55,727 nt of DNA. Origin: Betaproteobacteria bacterium (GTDB taxonomy: Bacteria > Pseudomonadota > Gammaproteobacteria > Burkholderiales > Ga0077523). The notes below the pieces were generated by a model that worked only from the letters and a program-made list of their open reading frames with translations, was not told the origin of the DNA and ran no database searches. Shown in pieces: positions 12,711-55,727 of this stretch. The stretch's first letter is position 1; every line of letters starts with the position of its first letter. The stretch lies in the NCBI GenBank assembly GCA_016125475.1, contig WGLR01000046.1, forward strand, positions 1-55,727, read 5' to 3'. Made by a program: the position numbers and the translations under genes.

Positions 12711-13970
12711 ATGAGCGAGACCATACAGTCCGTCAAGGGAATGAACGACGTGCTGCCGGACGAGGCAGCCGCGTGGGAGTTCTTCGAGGAAACCGTGCGT
12801 GCGTGGCTGCGCCGCTACGGCTATCGCCAGATCCGCATGCCGATCCTGGAGCGCACGGACCTCTTCGTGCGGTCCATCGGCGAGGTCACGGACATCGTCG
12901 AGAAGGAGATGTTCACGTTCACGGACCGGCTGAACGGTGACGACCTCACCCTGCGTCCCGAGGGGACGGCCTCGTGCGCGCGCGCGGCGATCCAGCACAG
13001 CCTGCTCTACGCCGGCCCGCAGCGGCTCTGGTATTCCGGCCCGATGTTCCGGCACGAACGCCCGCAGAAGGGGCGTTACCGCCAGTTCCACCAGTTCGGG
13101 GTCGAGGCGCTCGGCCTGACGGGCCCCGACATCGATGCCGAACTCATCATCATGGGTGCGCGGCTCTGGCGGGATCTCGGGCTCGCGAACATCGAACTGG
13201 AAGTGAACACGCTCGGCGACGCCGAGGCCCGCGCACGGTACCGCGCGCGGCTGATCCATTACCTCGAGACCCACCAGGACGGCCTCGACGAGGACGCACG
13301 ACGCCGGATGCACACCAATCCACTTCGTGTGCTCGACAGCAAGAACCCGCAGATGCAGGCGCTCATCGAGGCCGCTCCCCGGATGCTGGACGACCTCGAC
13401 GAGCCGTCGCTCAAGCACTTCGAGGACGTCCAGCGGCTGCTGCGCAACGCCGGCGTCGAATATCGCATCAATACCCGCCTCGTCCGCGGCCTGGACTACT
13501 ACAATCGCACGGTTTTCGAGTGGGTCACGACGGAACTGGGCGCCCAGGGGACGGTCTGTGCGGGCGGTCGCTACGACGGGCTCGTCGCGCAGATCGGCGG
13601 CAAGCCGGCGCCCGCGGCGGGGTTCGCGATGGGGGTGGAGCGGCTCATCGCGCTGCTCCCGGGCGGCTCGCGCGAAGTGCCGCCGCTCGCGCCGGACGTC
13701 TATGTCGTCTGGAGCGGCGAGGCGGCCGAACCCCACGCGTGGCGCGTCGCGGAGCAGCTTCGCGATGCCGGTATGGACGTTACCATGCACGCCGGCGGGG
13801 GCAGTTTCAAATCCCAGATGAAACGCGCGGACGGCAGCGGTGCGCCGTTCGCCGTGATCATCGGTGACGACGAGGCGGCGGCCGGCGAGGTCACGCTGAA
13901 GCCGATGCGCGACCAGCGCGAACAGGTAAGGGTGCGGGCCGAGGACGTGCCGGCACTCGTCAAGGGCTGA
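12711..13970 (+). CDS. hisS: Histidyl-tRNA synthetase, 419 aa
   Basis: Class II aminoacyl-tRNA synthetase charging tRNA-His. Motif 1 region, motif 2 [20 protein letters not shown], the histidine-specific [15 protein letters not shown] and motif 3 GFAMGVERL are all present, followed by the C-terminal anticodon-binding domain from about residue 325. ATG 12711 gives the standard N-terminus ([16 protein letters not shown]) but has no clear ribosome-binding site. An in-frame GTG at 12669 overlaps the ispG stop (GTGA) and could instead couple translation, adding 14 residues. Confidence 0.96.
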
Positions 13971-13983
13971 GAGGAAGGGAGAC

Positions 13984-14619
13984 ATGGCGGTCTACAATCT
14001 GGAAGAGCAGGAAAACATCGAGGCACTCAAGGCCTGGTGGAAGCAGTACGGTCGCATGGTGATCTCCGCCGCGGTGGCGTTCGTCCTCGGCGTGGGCGGG
14101 ATCCAGATCTGGCGCTACTACAAGACCCAGCAGGCGCTCGGTGCCGCGGCCGTGTATCTCGACCTGGAGCAGTCCGTGAAGGTCGGCAACGTCGAGAAGG
14201 CCGGGACGCTCGAGGCGAAGCTCCGGGACGACTACGCCCGAACGACCTACGCACCGCGCGGCGCGATGCTCTACGGCAAGCTCCTCGTCGACAAGGGCCA
14301 GGAAGACAAGGCGGCCAGTGCGCTCGCCTGGGCTGCCGGCAATGCTAAGGATCCCGCCGTGGGCGCCCTCGCGAACCTTCGTCTCGCGGCCGTGCTCCTC
14401 GACCTCGGCAAGTACGACGAGGCGCTCAAGGCAGTCTCGAATCCGCCGACGGACCCGTTCGCGGCCCTGTTCGCGGACACGCGCGGGGACATCCTCGTCG
14501 CGCAGGGCAAGAAGGAAGACGCGAAGGGCGCCTATCAGATCGCGCTCGACAAGCTTCCCAAGACGAGCGCGTATCGCAACGTGGTCGAGATCAAGCGCGA
14601 AGCCCTGGGGATCAAGTGA
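13984..14619 (+). CDS. YfgM-family tetratricopeptide membrane protein, 211 aa
   Basis: Inner-membrane protein with a cytoplasmic N-terminus, one membrane helix at about residues 24-42 (VISAAVAFVLGVGGIQIW), and a periplasmic TPR-like domain (Pfam TPR_21/DUF2133). In E. coli, YfgM is an ancillary SecYEG-associated factor that works with PpiD. EENIEALKAWWKQYG at the start is diagnostic. AGGGAGA lies just before the ATG. Placed between hisS and bamB, the same order as in E. coli, with a four-base overlap to the in-frame GTG of bamB. Confidence 0.9.
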   Translation: MAVYNLEEQENIEALKAWWKQYGRMVISAAVAFVLGVGGIQIWRYYKTQQALGAAAVYLDLEQSVKVGNVEKAGTLEAKLRDDYARTTYAPRGAMLYGKLLVDKGQEDKAASALAWAAGNAKDPAVGALANLRLAAVLLDLGKYDEALKAVSNPPTDPFAALFADTRGDILVAQGKKEDAKGAYQIALDKLPKTSAYRNVVEIKREALGIK

Positions 14620-23801: not shown

Positions 23802-23888
23802 TGGTGCCGAGAAGAGGACTCGAACCTCCACAGGGTTGCCCCCGCCAGGACCTGAACCTGGTGCGTCTACCAATTCCGCCATCTCGGC
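23802..23888 (-). tRNA. tRNA-Leu (anticodon CAG)
   Basis: 87 bases including an encoded CCA. Reading the minus strand, the acceptor GCCGAGA pairs with TCTCGGC followed by A-CCA. D-arm TGGCGGAATTGGTAGACGCA, anticodon loop TTCAGGT with CAG at 23852-23854, a long variable arm typical of leucine tRNAs, and T-loop GGTTCGAGTCC are all clear. It decodes CUG, a heavily used codon in such GC-rich genomes. A promoter sits directly upstream. Confidence 0.97.
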
Positions 23889-51799: not shown

Positions 51800-52114
51800 T
51801 CACGCCTCCGCCGGCGCATCCCTTTCGAGACGGATCTTGCCCCGTCCGGGGCGTACCTGGAGATCGTTGTCCCGGGCAAAGCTCATCAGGAAGTCGTAGG
51901 CCTGCGGGTTGATTTCCTGCAGGACCGTCTCGATCACGACGCCCGTCTGGCCTTCACGCGAAACCGGGCGGGCGTGCCGTGAATACCGCAGCCGGTTGTC
52001 ACCGTCGAACGCGGCGAGGGCACCACAGAGTCGTTCGGCCCAGTCGCTCGGGCGAAACGTGCGCCCGTCCGCGTGGATGCCGAGGATCAACCATTCTTCG
52101 GGTTCGACGTTCAT
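51800..52114 (-). CDS. DUF3579 protein, 104 aa
   Basis: Matches DUF3579, a betaproteobacterial family of unknown function: ILGIHADGRTFRPSDWAERL, CGALAAFDGDNRLRYSRHAR, MSFARDNDLQVRPGRGKI. No catalytic motif or signal peptide. It is transcribed toward the glutamate-synthase-like gene and away from the MarR gene by 360 bases. An upstream overlapping open frame is not believed. Confidence 0.85.
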   Translation of the reverse strand: MNVEPEEWLILGIHADGRTFRPSDWAERLCGALAAFDGDNRLRYSRHARPVSREGQTGVVIETVLQEINPQAYDFLMSFARDNDLQVRPGRGKIRLERDAPAEA

Positions 52115-52473
52115 TGGGGAGGCACTGGACGAAGGGGCAGATCCTTATCGTCATCGGCGGGCTGGTCTTGAGTATCGGGCGTCCGCCAGGGGGTGTCGTC
52201 CGGCCTTCCCGTGCCGGTCCGGGACGGGCGTGGCCGGGGAGAGCGCGTCGACACCACCACGCCGTTGCCCGCCGAACCCCCGTTGATCAGCGTGGTGGCT
52301 CGCGGGTCAGGGCCGTGTCGCGCGACTTCATCGGCGTGTCGGTCGCGCGCGGCTTCCGGGTGTCGCCGTGCCGGAAACCGCATTTGCGCTCCGCCCCGCG
52401 ACTCTGATATTTTGGTCGGAATGTTTTCTGGGCGGTGGCAGGCGTCGCGCCCCTTCGGGGGCACGACCCGGGG
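52115..52473. other. Intergenic region between marR-type gene and DUF3579
   Basis: No convincing gene. A 117-codon minus-strand frame overlaps the DUF3579 start but has a random-looking Pro/Arg-rich product. An AT-rich patch at 52407-52428 may hold the DUF3579 promoter. Confidence 0.45.
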
Positions 52474-53004
52474 TCAGATGTCCGACAAATGGGTCTTCGC
52501 GGCGGATTTCGTGCGCACCGCCATACGTTCGATGATGTTCGCGAGGGCACGATCCAGCTTCGCCAGCTCGGCAGGGGACATGCTCGCGAGCGCGTCCGGG
52601 AGGACGCCACGTGCAGGTCCGGGAGCCTTCTTCAGGAGCTTTTCGCCGGACTGGAGCAGATGAATCCTGACGACGCGGGCGTCTTCGGTCGCGGTCTTGC
52701 GTGTGATGAGTCGACGGCGCGACAACTCGCCGAGCAGGTTGCTCACGGTGGACTGGTGAAGCGCCATGGCCGCCGCAAGGTCGGTCACTTTGAGTCCGGG
52801 ACGCTCGGCGATCTCCCGCAGTGCCCACAGCTGGGCAGGGGTGACGCCGACGGACTTCTCCACATTGGCGAAGTGCAGCTTGGCCGCCCGGAAGATCTGG
52901 CGGAACTTCATGAGCACGGCCAGAGCGGTGTGCCCGTCTGAGGCCACGGCTGGCTTGGCTGCTTTGCGACGACTGGTCGACTGGGAGGCGGGTGCGCTGG
53001 GCAT
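52474..53004 (-). CDS. MarR-family transcriptional regulator, 176 aa
   Basis: Winged-helix regulator. The DNA-binding part reads VTPAQLWALREIAERPGLKV, TDLAAAMALHQSTVSNLLGE, LSRRRLITRKTATEDARVVR, as in MarR proteins; the C-terminal helices form the dimer. An N-terminal Ser/Lys-rich leader is unstructured. ATG 53004 is selected because upstream codons (to 53229) look non-coding and overlap the divergent gene. The ligand is unknown. It is divergent from the TreY-like gene with 169 bases between, so it could control itself and that gene. Confidence 0.8.
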   Translation of the reverse strand: MPSAPASQSTSRRKAAKPAVASDGHTALAVLMKFRQIFRAAKLHFANVEKSVGVTPAQLWALREIAERPGLKVTDLAAAMALHQSTVSNLLGELSRRRLITRKTATEDARVVRIHLLQSGEKLLKKAPGPARGVLPDALASMSPAELAKLDRALANIIERMAVRTKSAAKTHLSDI

Positions 53005-53173
53005 TTTCTTCGGTTGAAGCCTACAGGTTAGGGTCAAGGAACAGGGGAGCGGACATTTCCGCGAACGGTCCGGACAATCCAGGCGGGATGATAATGTCTG
53101 CCCGGGAGAAATGTATGGGGTGTGCATCCATTCGCCGCGATACGTTTGATTTTCGACATGAGCCGATGAAGCG

Positions 53174-55727
53174 ATGGGACAAGGCTTTTTGAGGAGAGGA
53201 CGTCGGGTCGTCGTGGCCGAAGTGGTCACCGAGAACCGCGTCGAAACAGAAGAAGGTCCTGACGGTGGCGACAGTGCGCCGCCAGTCGTGCCGAAGGTGC
53301 CGCGGGCGATCTATCGTTTCCAGCTGACCCCTCAGTTCGGCCTGCGCGAGGTACGGGCGCTCGTGCCATACCTCGCTTCCCTCGGGTTCAGCCACGTCTG
53401 CTGTTCGCCCTATCTGCGCGCGCTCGGAGGCACCGGTGCCCGTCTGGGGCTCAGTGGCGAGGACGCGGTCGATCCCCTCCTCGGTGACCATGATTCACTC
53501 GAGGCGCTCGCACTTTCCCTGCAGTCCCACGGCATGGGGCAGATCATCGAGGTCGCGCCCGACCAGATGACCGACGCGGGAAACGAGCACGTCTGGTGGC
53601 TCGACGTACTGGAGAACGGTGCGGCCTCGCGGTTTGCGGATCATTTCGACCTCGAGTGGGATGCCGGGTCGGCGAGCGGACCCCCGCGCGTCGTCGTGGT
53701 TCTCCCCGAGTCCGCGTTCGTGCCGGGCGCTTCCGTGCCCGACATTCCACTGGTTTTCGACGAGTCGGCCGGCTGCTTCTTCTTCGTCCACGATTCGTAT
53801 CGCCTGCCTCTCTCGCCGGCCTCCTATGGCGAAATCCTCCGGACGGCCGCCGGAAGCGTCGAAGCGTCACTGCCCGAGGCCGGCAGGGAACTGCACGGCA
53901 TTGCTGCAGGATTCGACGGATTGCCGTCCTGCGACACAAGGTCTGCGGCGGAGATTGCCGCCCGTGGTCGCGGAAAGGAGCGACTCAAGCACTCTCTCGC
54001 CGGGGCTTGCGAGCGCTGGCCGGAGATCGTTGCCGGCATCGAGGCAGTCGTGGCGACCCTCAACGGGGAGCACGCGGCGACGGACGGTCGCTCCCGCGGC
54101 CTGCTTCTCGACCGGCAGGCTTTCCGGGCGGTCCGACCGAGCGAGCGGGAAGATCTCGCGAAAGGGGCGGGGCGTGCGGCACGGCGCGAGCTCAGGATCG
54201 AGCACGAGGCAGTGTTCCATGCGACGCATCGTCCCGTTCTCGACTGGGCGCGCAAGGGCTGGGTTCAGGGCGTGAGGGTGGATTGTCTGGATCGTCTGCG
54301 CGATCCGGTGAGCTACCTCGGTCGTCTCAGCTCGAGTGTCAGTACGGCGCTCGCGCACGGCGAGGGCAGCGAGTCCGTATCACGGTCCGGGGGGCCGTCC
54401 CTGTATGTCGTGGTGGACAAGGTGACGTCGCCCGAAGAACGGTTGCCTGCCTCATGGCCGATCGACGGCACCACCGGACTGCAGTTCGCGAACGCCGTGG
54501 ACGGTGTGTTCGTGGACACCGCGGCCAAGGGGCGTTTCGATCGCATCTACACGGGTTTCACCGGCAAGGGTGCCGGGTTCTGGGAGACCGCGCGCGCGTG
54601 CAAGCTCCGGGCGCTGGAGAGCGCCCATGCGGACGAGCTGGACTATGCCGCGCGCCGACTGTCACGGATCTCCGGTCACGCACGGGACGGTGGGGATGAC
54701 GATCCCGCAAGGCTGCGGGCCGCGCTCGCCGAGGTGATCGCGAGTCTCCCCGTCTACCGGATCTATTCGTCGTCCGATTCGGACCCACAGACCAGGGCAT
54801 TCGTGGATCGTGCCATCGAGTCTGCACGGGCATCGAGACCGGACCTGTCCGAAGAATCGCTGGCGCTCATTCGGCGGATCCTGCTCGGTGACGGCTCGCC
54901 GGACGGCGACGGCCTGACGCAAGACGAGCGTCGGGCGGTGACATTGCGGCTTCAGCGACTGGCGGCCGCCGCAATGACGCTGGGCGTGGAGGAGCGCGCG
55001 CTGTACCGCCACGTCGGGCTGGTCTCGCTCAACGAGACCGGGGGAGATCCGTCGACATTCGGTACGACCCTGCCCGGATTTCACGGTGCGAATCGGGAAC
55101 GCAGCACGCAGTGGCCCCGTGCGGTGGTCCCGGCGTCGACACAGGCCGCGTGCCGTTCGACCGATGCGCGTGCGCGGATCAACGTGCTGTCGGAAATCCC
55201 GGGTGCCTGGCGGGATGCGCTGGAACGCTGGGCCGACATGAATGCGCGCTTCAGGGTGCGCCTGACCGACGATCGCACGGTACCCGCGGCCGCCGACGAG
55301 TACATGCTCTACCAGACACTGCTCGGGACGTGGCCGCTCGCGCCGCTCGACGCGGAAGGGCTTCGCGACTACGCGTCACGCATCAGGCGCTACATGATCC
55401 GGGCCGCGCGCGCCGCGGGCGTCCAGACGAGTCACGAGCAGGTCGACGCGGACTACGAGGAGGCTCTCGGCACGTTCGTCGACGGGATCCTCGCCTCTGC
55501 CGCCGACAACGCGTTCCTTCAGGACTTTGCGGGTTTTCGCGAATACATTGCCTGGCTCGGCATCCTGAACAGCCTGTCGAACACCGCGCTCAAGCTCACG
55601 GTGCCGGGCGTTCCACAGATGTTCCAGGGGGCCGAGTTCTTCGACTTCACGCTCGACCGGGAGGATCGCGAGGAACGCGCGCAATCCCCGGACTGGGAGA
55701 ACCGGAAGATCCTGTCCAAGCGGCTCA
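53174..55727 (+). CDS. TreY-like GH13 family protein with degenerate catalytic motifs (partial, 851+ codons)
   Basis: The frame is open from ATG 53174 (alternative GTG 53213) past the right edge. It follows the maltooligosyltrehalose synthase (TreY) fold: AIYRFQLTPQFGLREVRALV, HVWWLDVLENG, SWPIDGTTGL, LVSLNETGGDP, ARARINVLSEIPGAWRDALE, PGVPQMFQGAEF. Key catalytic positions differ from TreY: region I VPNHM is APDQM (130-132), RIDH is RVDC (D370 kept, H lost at 371), acid/base Glu in EKIL becomes D415, and STHDTKR becomes STQAACR (Q657, A658, A659, C660). GVPD is GVPQ (Q815). The usual product, trehalose from glycogen ends, is therefore unlikely. A regulatory or binding role is inferred. The stop lies outside the window. 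Confidence 0.7.
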   Translation, partial: MGQGFLRRGRRVVVAEVVTENRVETEEGPDGGDSAPPVVPKVPRAIYRFQLTPQFGLREVRALVPYLASLGFSHVCCSPYLRALGGTGARLGLSGEDAVDPLLGDHDSLEALALSLQSHGMGQIIEVAPDQMTDAGNEHVWWLDVLENGAASRFADHFDLEWDAGSASGPPRVVVVLPESAFVPGASVPDIPLVFDESAGCFFFVHDSYRLPLSPASYGEILRTAAGSVEASLPEAGRELHGIAAGFDGLPSCDTRSAAEIAARGRGKERLKHSLAGACERWPEIVAGIEAVVATLNGEHAATDGRSRGLLLDRQAFRAVRPSEREDLAKGAGRAARRELRIEHEAVFHATHRPVLDWARKGWVQGVRVDCLDRLRDPVSYLGRLSSSVSTALAHGEGSESVSRSGGPSLYVVVDKVTSPEERLPASWPIDGTTGLQFANAVDGVFVDTAAKGRFDRIYTGFTGKGAGFWETARACKLRALESAHADELDYAARRLSRISGHARDGGDDDPARLRAALAEVIASLPVYRIYSSSDSDPQTRAFVDRAIESARASRPDLSEESLALIRRILLGDGSPDGDGLTQDERRAVTLRLQRLAAAAMTLGVEERALYRHVGLVSLNETGGDPSTFGTTLPGFHGANRERSTQWPRAVVPASTQAACRSTDARARINVLSEIPGAWRDALERWADMNARFRVRLTDDRTVPAAADEYMLYQTLLGTWPLAPLDAEGLRDYASRIRRYMIRAARAAGVQTSHEQVDADYEEALGTFVDGILASAADNAFLQDFAGFREYIAWLGILNSLSNTALKLTVPGVPQMFQGAEFFDFTLDREDREERAQSPDWENRKILSKRL

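Follow-up and report, generated by a model that had tools for sequence, protein, structure and literature searches.

The window analysed here is the whole of contig C9 (55,727 bases), part of a 4.88 Mb draft genome that comprises 48 contigs, with a completeness of 96.72% and a contamination of 1.49%. Its right-hand edge carries a frame homologous to maltooligosyltrehalose synthase (TreY), next to a gene for a MarR-family regulator (Table 1). A DUF3579 protein (Pfam) is encoded upstream of the latter, and the window also contains one tRNA (Rfam, gathering threshold) amid many coding-like frames. The stretch 52300-53400 yielded no site resembling a promoter or terminator.

Table 1. Coordinates of features on contig C9 (the window) and on contig C6
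Feature	Position	Strand	Basis or remark
tRNA	23805-23888	-	Rfam
DUF3579 protein	51803-52114	-	Pfam
MarR-family regulator gene, 176 aa	52474..53004	-	Divergent from TreY-like frame; Pfam MarR_2 49.1 bits, MarR 43 bits; start 53004 read from translation
TreY-like frame	53174..55727	+	851 codons (53174-55726), truncated at the contig edge; gene very probably runs on in C6, minus strand, from 14822 to 14361
Residues 86-92 (GTGARLG) replacing the family's GSxHGYD	53429..53449	+	159-row alignment
Region I: D130-Q131 replacing Asn-His	53561..53566	+	159-row alignment
Region II: nucleophile column D370 kept, C371 replacing His	54281..54286	+	159-row alignment
Region III: D415 replacing acid/base Glu	54416..54418	+	159-row alignment
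Region IV: Q657-A658 replacing His-Asp (stabiliser)	55142..55147	+	159-row alignment
TreY C-terminal piece	C6:14382-14810	-	TIGR02401 match
MscS-type mechanosensitive channel gene	L014 (G000:C6) 13291-14214	-	Next after TreY C-terminal piece

Family Membership and Extent of the TreY-like Frame

The frame is free of stops for 851 codons from its ATG (855 counted from the preceding stop) and runs off the edge of the contig. Thus truncated, it scored 503.0 bits against the TIGR02401 (TreY) profile, for which the cut-off is 498.65, and matched the maltooligosyltrehalose synthases (MTSases) 6lcu, 6lcv, 5zcr, 1iv8 and 3hje in the PDB. The PRK14507 model gave 667.7 bits, below its own cut-off of 2148, and a Pfam search at E values up to 0.001 returned no family, hence no match to the GH13 amylase domain (PF00128), which was recorded at 69.3 bits in a slice of the genome's intact TreY. 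On the evidence of profile and structure matches the frame is a TreY homologue (family GH13_26), and the original prediction of an open maltooligosyltrehalose synthase homologue at this edge was thereby confirmed.

A TIGR02401 search of the genome returned, together with four weak matches, an intact TreY on contig C46 (976.6 bits), the frame itself (profile positions 1-686) and a piece on contig C6 (profile positions 706-836) which, that contig being 14,823 bases in length, sits at its very end. The piece consists of 153 codons that stay open up to a stop where TreY proteins normally terminate, and its best-scoring matches in 349 genomes of the order showed 31 to 38% identity. When the frame and the C6 piece were each used in a search, eight of the ten highest-ranking other genomes in either case belonged to one 14-row group, which stands with the frame in a quick tree. 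As judged from match spacing in eleven genomes of this group, the gap between the two contigs amounts to 1, 5, 4, 1, 4, -2, -9, 3, 4, -13 and -13 residues, and to 1 by the spacing in the genome's own intact TreY. Because these estimates are small (-13 to 5 residues), C9 and C6, which are unjoined in the assembly, very probably meet within a single gene of approximately 1000 codons, a junction that we infer from match spacing and shared relatives. The end of C6 accordingly supplies an in-frame candidate for the C-terminal TreY region and, provided that it does belong to this gene, the early stop beyond the window that would have spoken for decay was not seen.

The next gene on C6 encodes an MscS-type channel; such channels, like trehalose, are connected with osmotic stress. 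Within the genus, the one close MscS relative (54-56%, genome G302) lies on a 13.8-kb contig with no TreY match, a result that speaks neither for nor against the C9-C6 junction.

A gene interrupted where a contig breaks off, in a draft of the stated completeness and contamination, could be the product of an assembly error, or the contig could be foreign. Both are highly improbable: all 855 codons are open in a single frame of coding composition, the frame and the C6 piece point to the same relatives, and the tRNA and the many other coding-like frames on C9, which resemble conserved chromosomal genes, argue against a foreign contig.

The Intact TreY Cluster and the MarR Gene

Contig C46 carries a glycogen/trehalose cluster, its genes named by reading their translations and, for TreY, by the TIGR02401 match, which comprises treS-like, glgX and treZ genes plus a MalQ-TreY fusion of 1712 codons with intact motifs. 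The TreY-like frame is a stand-alone gene with no MalQ half, located outside a tre cluster. Of treZ, glgX and a second, intact treY, which the original proposal was to seek beyond the frame, an intact treY exists elsewhere in the genome, but treZ and glgX lie beside that copy, not beside the frame.

The nearest in-genome relative of the MarR gene (31%, 63 bits) is likewise divergent and adjoins the gene with which the C46 cluster begins. In a set of 100 further stretches that bear TreY, each with no more than ~10 kb of flank, MarR relatives were seen in two, at 86 bits in G020 and at 63 bits in a Geobacter, and in none of the remaining 98. Together with the relative on C46, these cases, from a small sample, hint at a joint origin of the MarR and TreY genes from a tre cluster.

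Catalytic Columns

An alignment was made of the frame and 159 further TreY rows, drawn from genomes of its own phylum and from a collection of genome contigs, after removal of the genome's own fragments (L002, L003) and of four partial rows (L064, L070, L072, L199). The rows are not equivalent to independent lineages, since species may repeat and some rows are near-identical (L025, L026). Catalytic columns were placed via the MTSases 6lcu and 5zcr in PDB alignments, and the roles assigned to them are those general to GH13 enzymes.

The nucleophile Asp, present in 159/159 other rows, is retained in the frame as D370, as is the equally invariant Arg (R368). The acid/base Glu and the stabiliser Asp, each likewise present in all 159 rows, are represented by D415 and A658 respectively, so that D370/D415/A658 stands where every other row has Asp/Glu/Asp. 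Beyond this triad, the Asn and His of region I (159/159) are replaced by D130 and Q131, the His of region IV (159/159) by Q657, and the His of region II, found in 158 rows with Pro in the other, by C371. The HGYD motif is also gone and reads ARLG, with A89 and L91 in place of the His and Tyr of the 159 rows. Mapping the frame in this way upheld each replacement originally proposed, namely His to Cys after a retained D370, Glu to Asp, Asp to Ala and loss of the region I His. Loss of the catalytic residues was thus correctly foreseen, but the actual loss is wider than the triad: it extends to 45 of 115 near-invariant columns, including HGYD, which had escaped mention. The frame is an enzyme homologue with essential residues replaced, as would be expected of a pseudoenzyme, and annotation by the TreY profile, which scores it above cut-off, would credit it with an activity that it very probably lacks.

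Retention of R368 and D370, the still acidic character of D415 and the appearance of D130 as a new acidic residue would be compatible with a repurposed enzyme, in which D370 together with D415 or D130 performs another reaction in the old barrel, and the rapid evolution of an open frame likewise fits a new function. Such repurposing is nevertheless improbable, the stabiliser Asp, three His residues and the HGYD segment having been lost together, a joint loss which in GH13 enzymes removes the -1 subsite; moreover, no partner genes of another pathway were recognised alongside.

Selection or Decay

The columns conserved in at least 95% of rows distinguish the frame most clearly from other TreYs, since it keeps only 70/115, a loss of 39%, against a median of 0.991 for the other rows and 0.90-1.00 for the ten most divergent of these. 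In the 85-95% class the frame keeps 58/79, and the same ten divergent rows keep 0.63-0.84. It was apparent that most of the scaffold resembles that of a very divergent TreY, and that the invariant columns do not. Uniform loss over conservation classes was modestly rejected (G 11.67, 4 df, p 0.02), and losses were modestly concentrated in the five catalytic segments (19/35, as compared with 26/80 elsewhere; Fisher p 0.038).

The open frame provides a stronger argument for selection than either of these tests. Since other TreYs hardly lose their near-invariant columns, the 39% lost was taken as a scale of the time since loss of function, on the assumption that loss proceeds at the average neutral rate, and neutral drift of the genome's own intact TreY was simulated to the corresponding 61% identity. 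The 851 codons then acquired a mean of 9.9 stops (minimum 1), and 0/400 runs remained stop-free; fewer neutral changes with selected changes on top would soften this argument. At 80% and 90% identity, 3/400 and 24/400 runs respectively were stop-free. GC3 exceeded GC2 in all eight 300-base windows of the frame, indicating a gene-like composition throughout, with an overall GC3 of 0.788 that lies below those of three genes of the C46 tre cluster (0.845-0.879).

These data bear directly on the view that the frame is decaying, as a divergent copy of TreY made redundant which has lost its function and is drifting, so far free of stops and frameshifts. A brief period of drift would be compatible with the absence of stops, as the runs at 90% identity indicate; the slightly lowered GC3, the losses beyond the catalytic segments, the absence of the frame from all 11 congeners and a long end branch (vide infra) also accord with that view. 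Against it stand the extent of the near-invariant loss, at which no neutral run stayed open, the retention of 85-95% columns to the degree found in divergent working TreYs, and the codon-position composition. Plain neutral decay is consequently unlikely. The original verdict of a selected pseudoenzyme as opposed to decay therefore held in so far as some ten stops were expected and none seen, and invariant columns were lost more than those of the next class; it gained no support as regards long-term conservation of the altered form, no orthologue having been found. The best full-length relatives, at only ~40% identity, are too distant for dN/dS.

Distribution and Origin

No orthologue of the frame was found in 11 congeners, nor was one recognised in 300 genomes of the order, 369 of the class and 398 of the phylum (overlapping samples, each counting the genome itself), in which TreY matches were present in 54, 37 and 71 genomes respectively. 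The family sample consisted of 12 genomes of a single genus, in which the frame was confined to its own genome, G302 had a single TreY match with intact motifs and ten had no match. Outside the genome, the best full-length identity was 41% (G321), a partial piece of 169 residues reaching 45% (G510). Two full-length TreY matches were found in no other genome of these samples, scoring having covered the best two or three candidates in each. The substitution set, for which a search of genomes had been proposed, was thus seen nowhere else in the samples from genus to phylum among the fetched loci, to which the reading of motifs was confined; a degenerate TreY may exist elsewhere.

Scanning the contig collection with only the frame's protein yielded 19 pattern matches, among them no relative. 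An alignment-based scan used three patterns, one of which was the region IV motif (THDxKR) and thereby favours intact enzymes; the best 80 of its 587 loci included none with a changed triad residue, L199 being a partial locus without the N-terminal motifs. Six of these 80 failed a strict motif string test: L138, L154 and L159 have Ser for the Thr preceding the region IV His, L145 has the same Ser plus HCYD, the region II His is Pro in L186, and the partial row L199 is the sixth. A similarly minor departure, HGYN in L043, also left the triad unchanged. A plasmid search gave 341 records with a match, all at below 60% identity.

In the quick tree the frame was placed in an open fork with the 14 rows (SH-aLRT 99), and a careful tree gave support of 85/90 (not starred) for its grouping with a similar 17-row set. 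The frame's end branch was 2.55 changes per column in the former and 3.3 in the latter (medians 0.37 and 0.45), a very long branch which is a sign of changed or relaxed constraint. The second tree and the topology tests were based on 34 rows, all except the frame cut at 830 residues. Pairing of the frame with the genome's own intact TreY (p-AU 0.147), or with the group of that TreY (p-AU 0.091), was not rejected, and the frame may possibly have originated either by duplication within the genome or by transfer.

Interpretation

Taken at the level of sequence, the interpretation that we regard as probable is a TreY-derived pseudoenzyme, its active-site chemistry lost and the folded protein kept under selection; most likely, the second full-length copy makes a non-catalytic protein. 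The open frame, together with the retention of 85-95% columns as in divergent TreYs, fits a protein kept for its fold and not for its chemistry. Weighing against this interpretation are the lack of an orthologue, the very long branch, the 26/80 losses outside the catalytic segments, the lower GC3 and the modest p values.

Under the pseudoenzyme interpretation, a second stand-alone TreY gene, which possibly arrived or was duplicated along with a tre-cluster regulator of MarR type, would have lost its active-site chemistry while selection maintained the folded protein. If expressed and acting without catalysis, this protein would most likely bind either the active MalQ-TreY/TreZ enzymes or linear alpha-glucan, and such binding would tune the flow from glycogen to trehalose. 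A role in binding glucan or a partner is suggested by analogy with the plant protein ISA2 (vide infra), and the link to TreZ or a glycogen enzyme originally envisaged is no more than conceivable, treZ and glgX adjoining the intact treY on C46 and not the frame. The fuller proposal, that the pseudoenzyme is under its own copy of the tre-cluster MarR regulator and tunes trehalose by sensing or scaffolding alpha-glucan or by binding active TreY/TreZ, is tentative and, as a whole, rather doubtful.

With TreY proper the frame shares collinearity over 851 codons, a score above the TIGR02401 cut-off and many structural columns; it differs in its replaced acid/base Glu, stabiliser Asp, three His residues and HGYD, and in standing alone outside a tre cluster. 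The animal proteins 4F2hc and rBAT, GH13-like but without activity, similarly retain the fold after loss of catalysis; unlike the frame, they are membrane subunits of amino-acid transporters and are not derived from TreY. As described in PMC12510319, plants have noncatalytic paralogues of alpha-glucan enzymes, for example ISA2, a paralogue of the isoamylase ISA1 which, like the frame, is retained beside an active counterpart, but which belongs to a plant starch debranching family and binds ISA1, whereas the frame has no known partner. Among the TreY papers listed, no title or abstract opening named a noncatalytic TreY paralogue, and no paper in the literature collection searched contained both 'trehalose synthase' and 'pseudoenzyme'. 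If selected, the frame would exemplify, in a bacterium, the addition of a noncatalytic component to a storage-glucan pathway.

Additional Observations on TreY

At the sensitivity of the search, the lack of a TreY match in 10/12 genomes of the genus, some of them incomplete, indicates that the pathway is patchy in its distribution. The TreY of L186, from a Candidatus Competibacteraceae MAG, carries its Pro at the otherwise invariant region II His with the triad intact. Two further TreY matches, G285:C3:183104-185458 and G877:C11:174475-176754, each contain one internal TGA, and may represent pseudogenes, frameshifts or sequencing errors.
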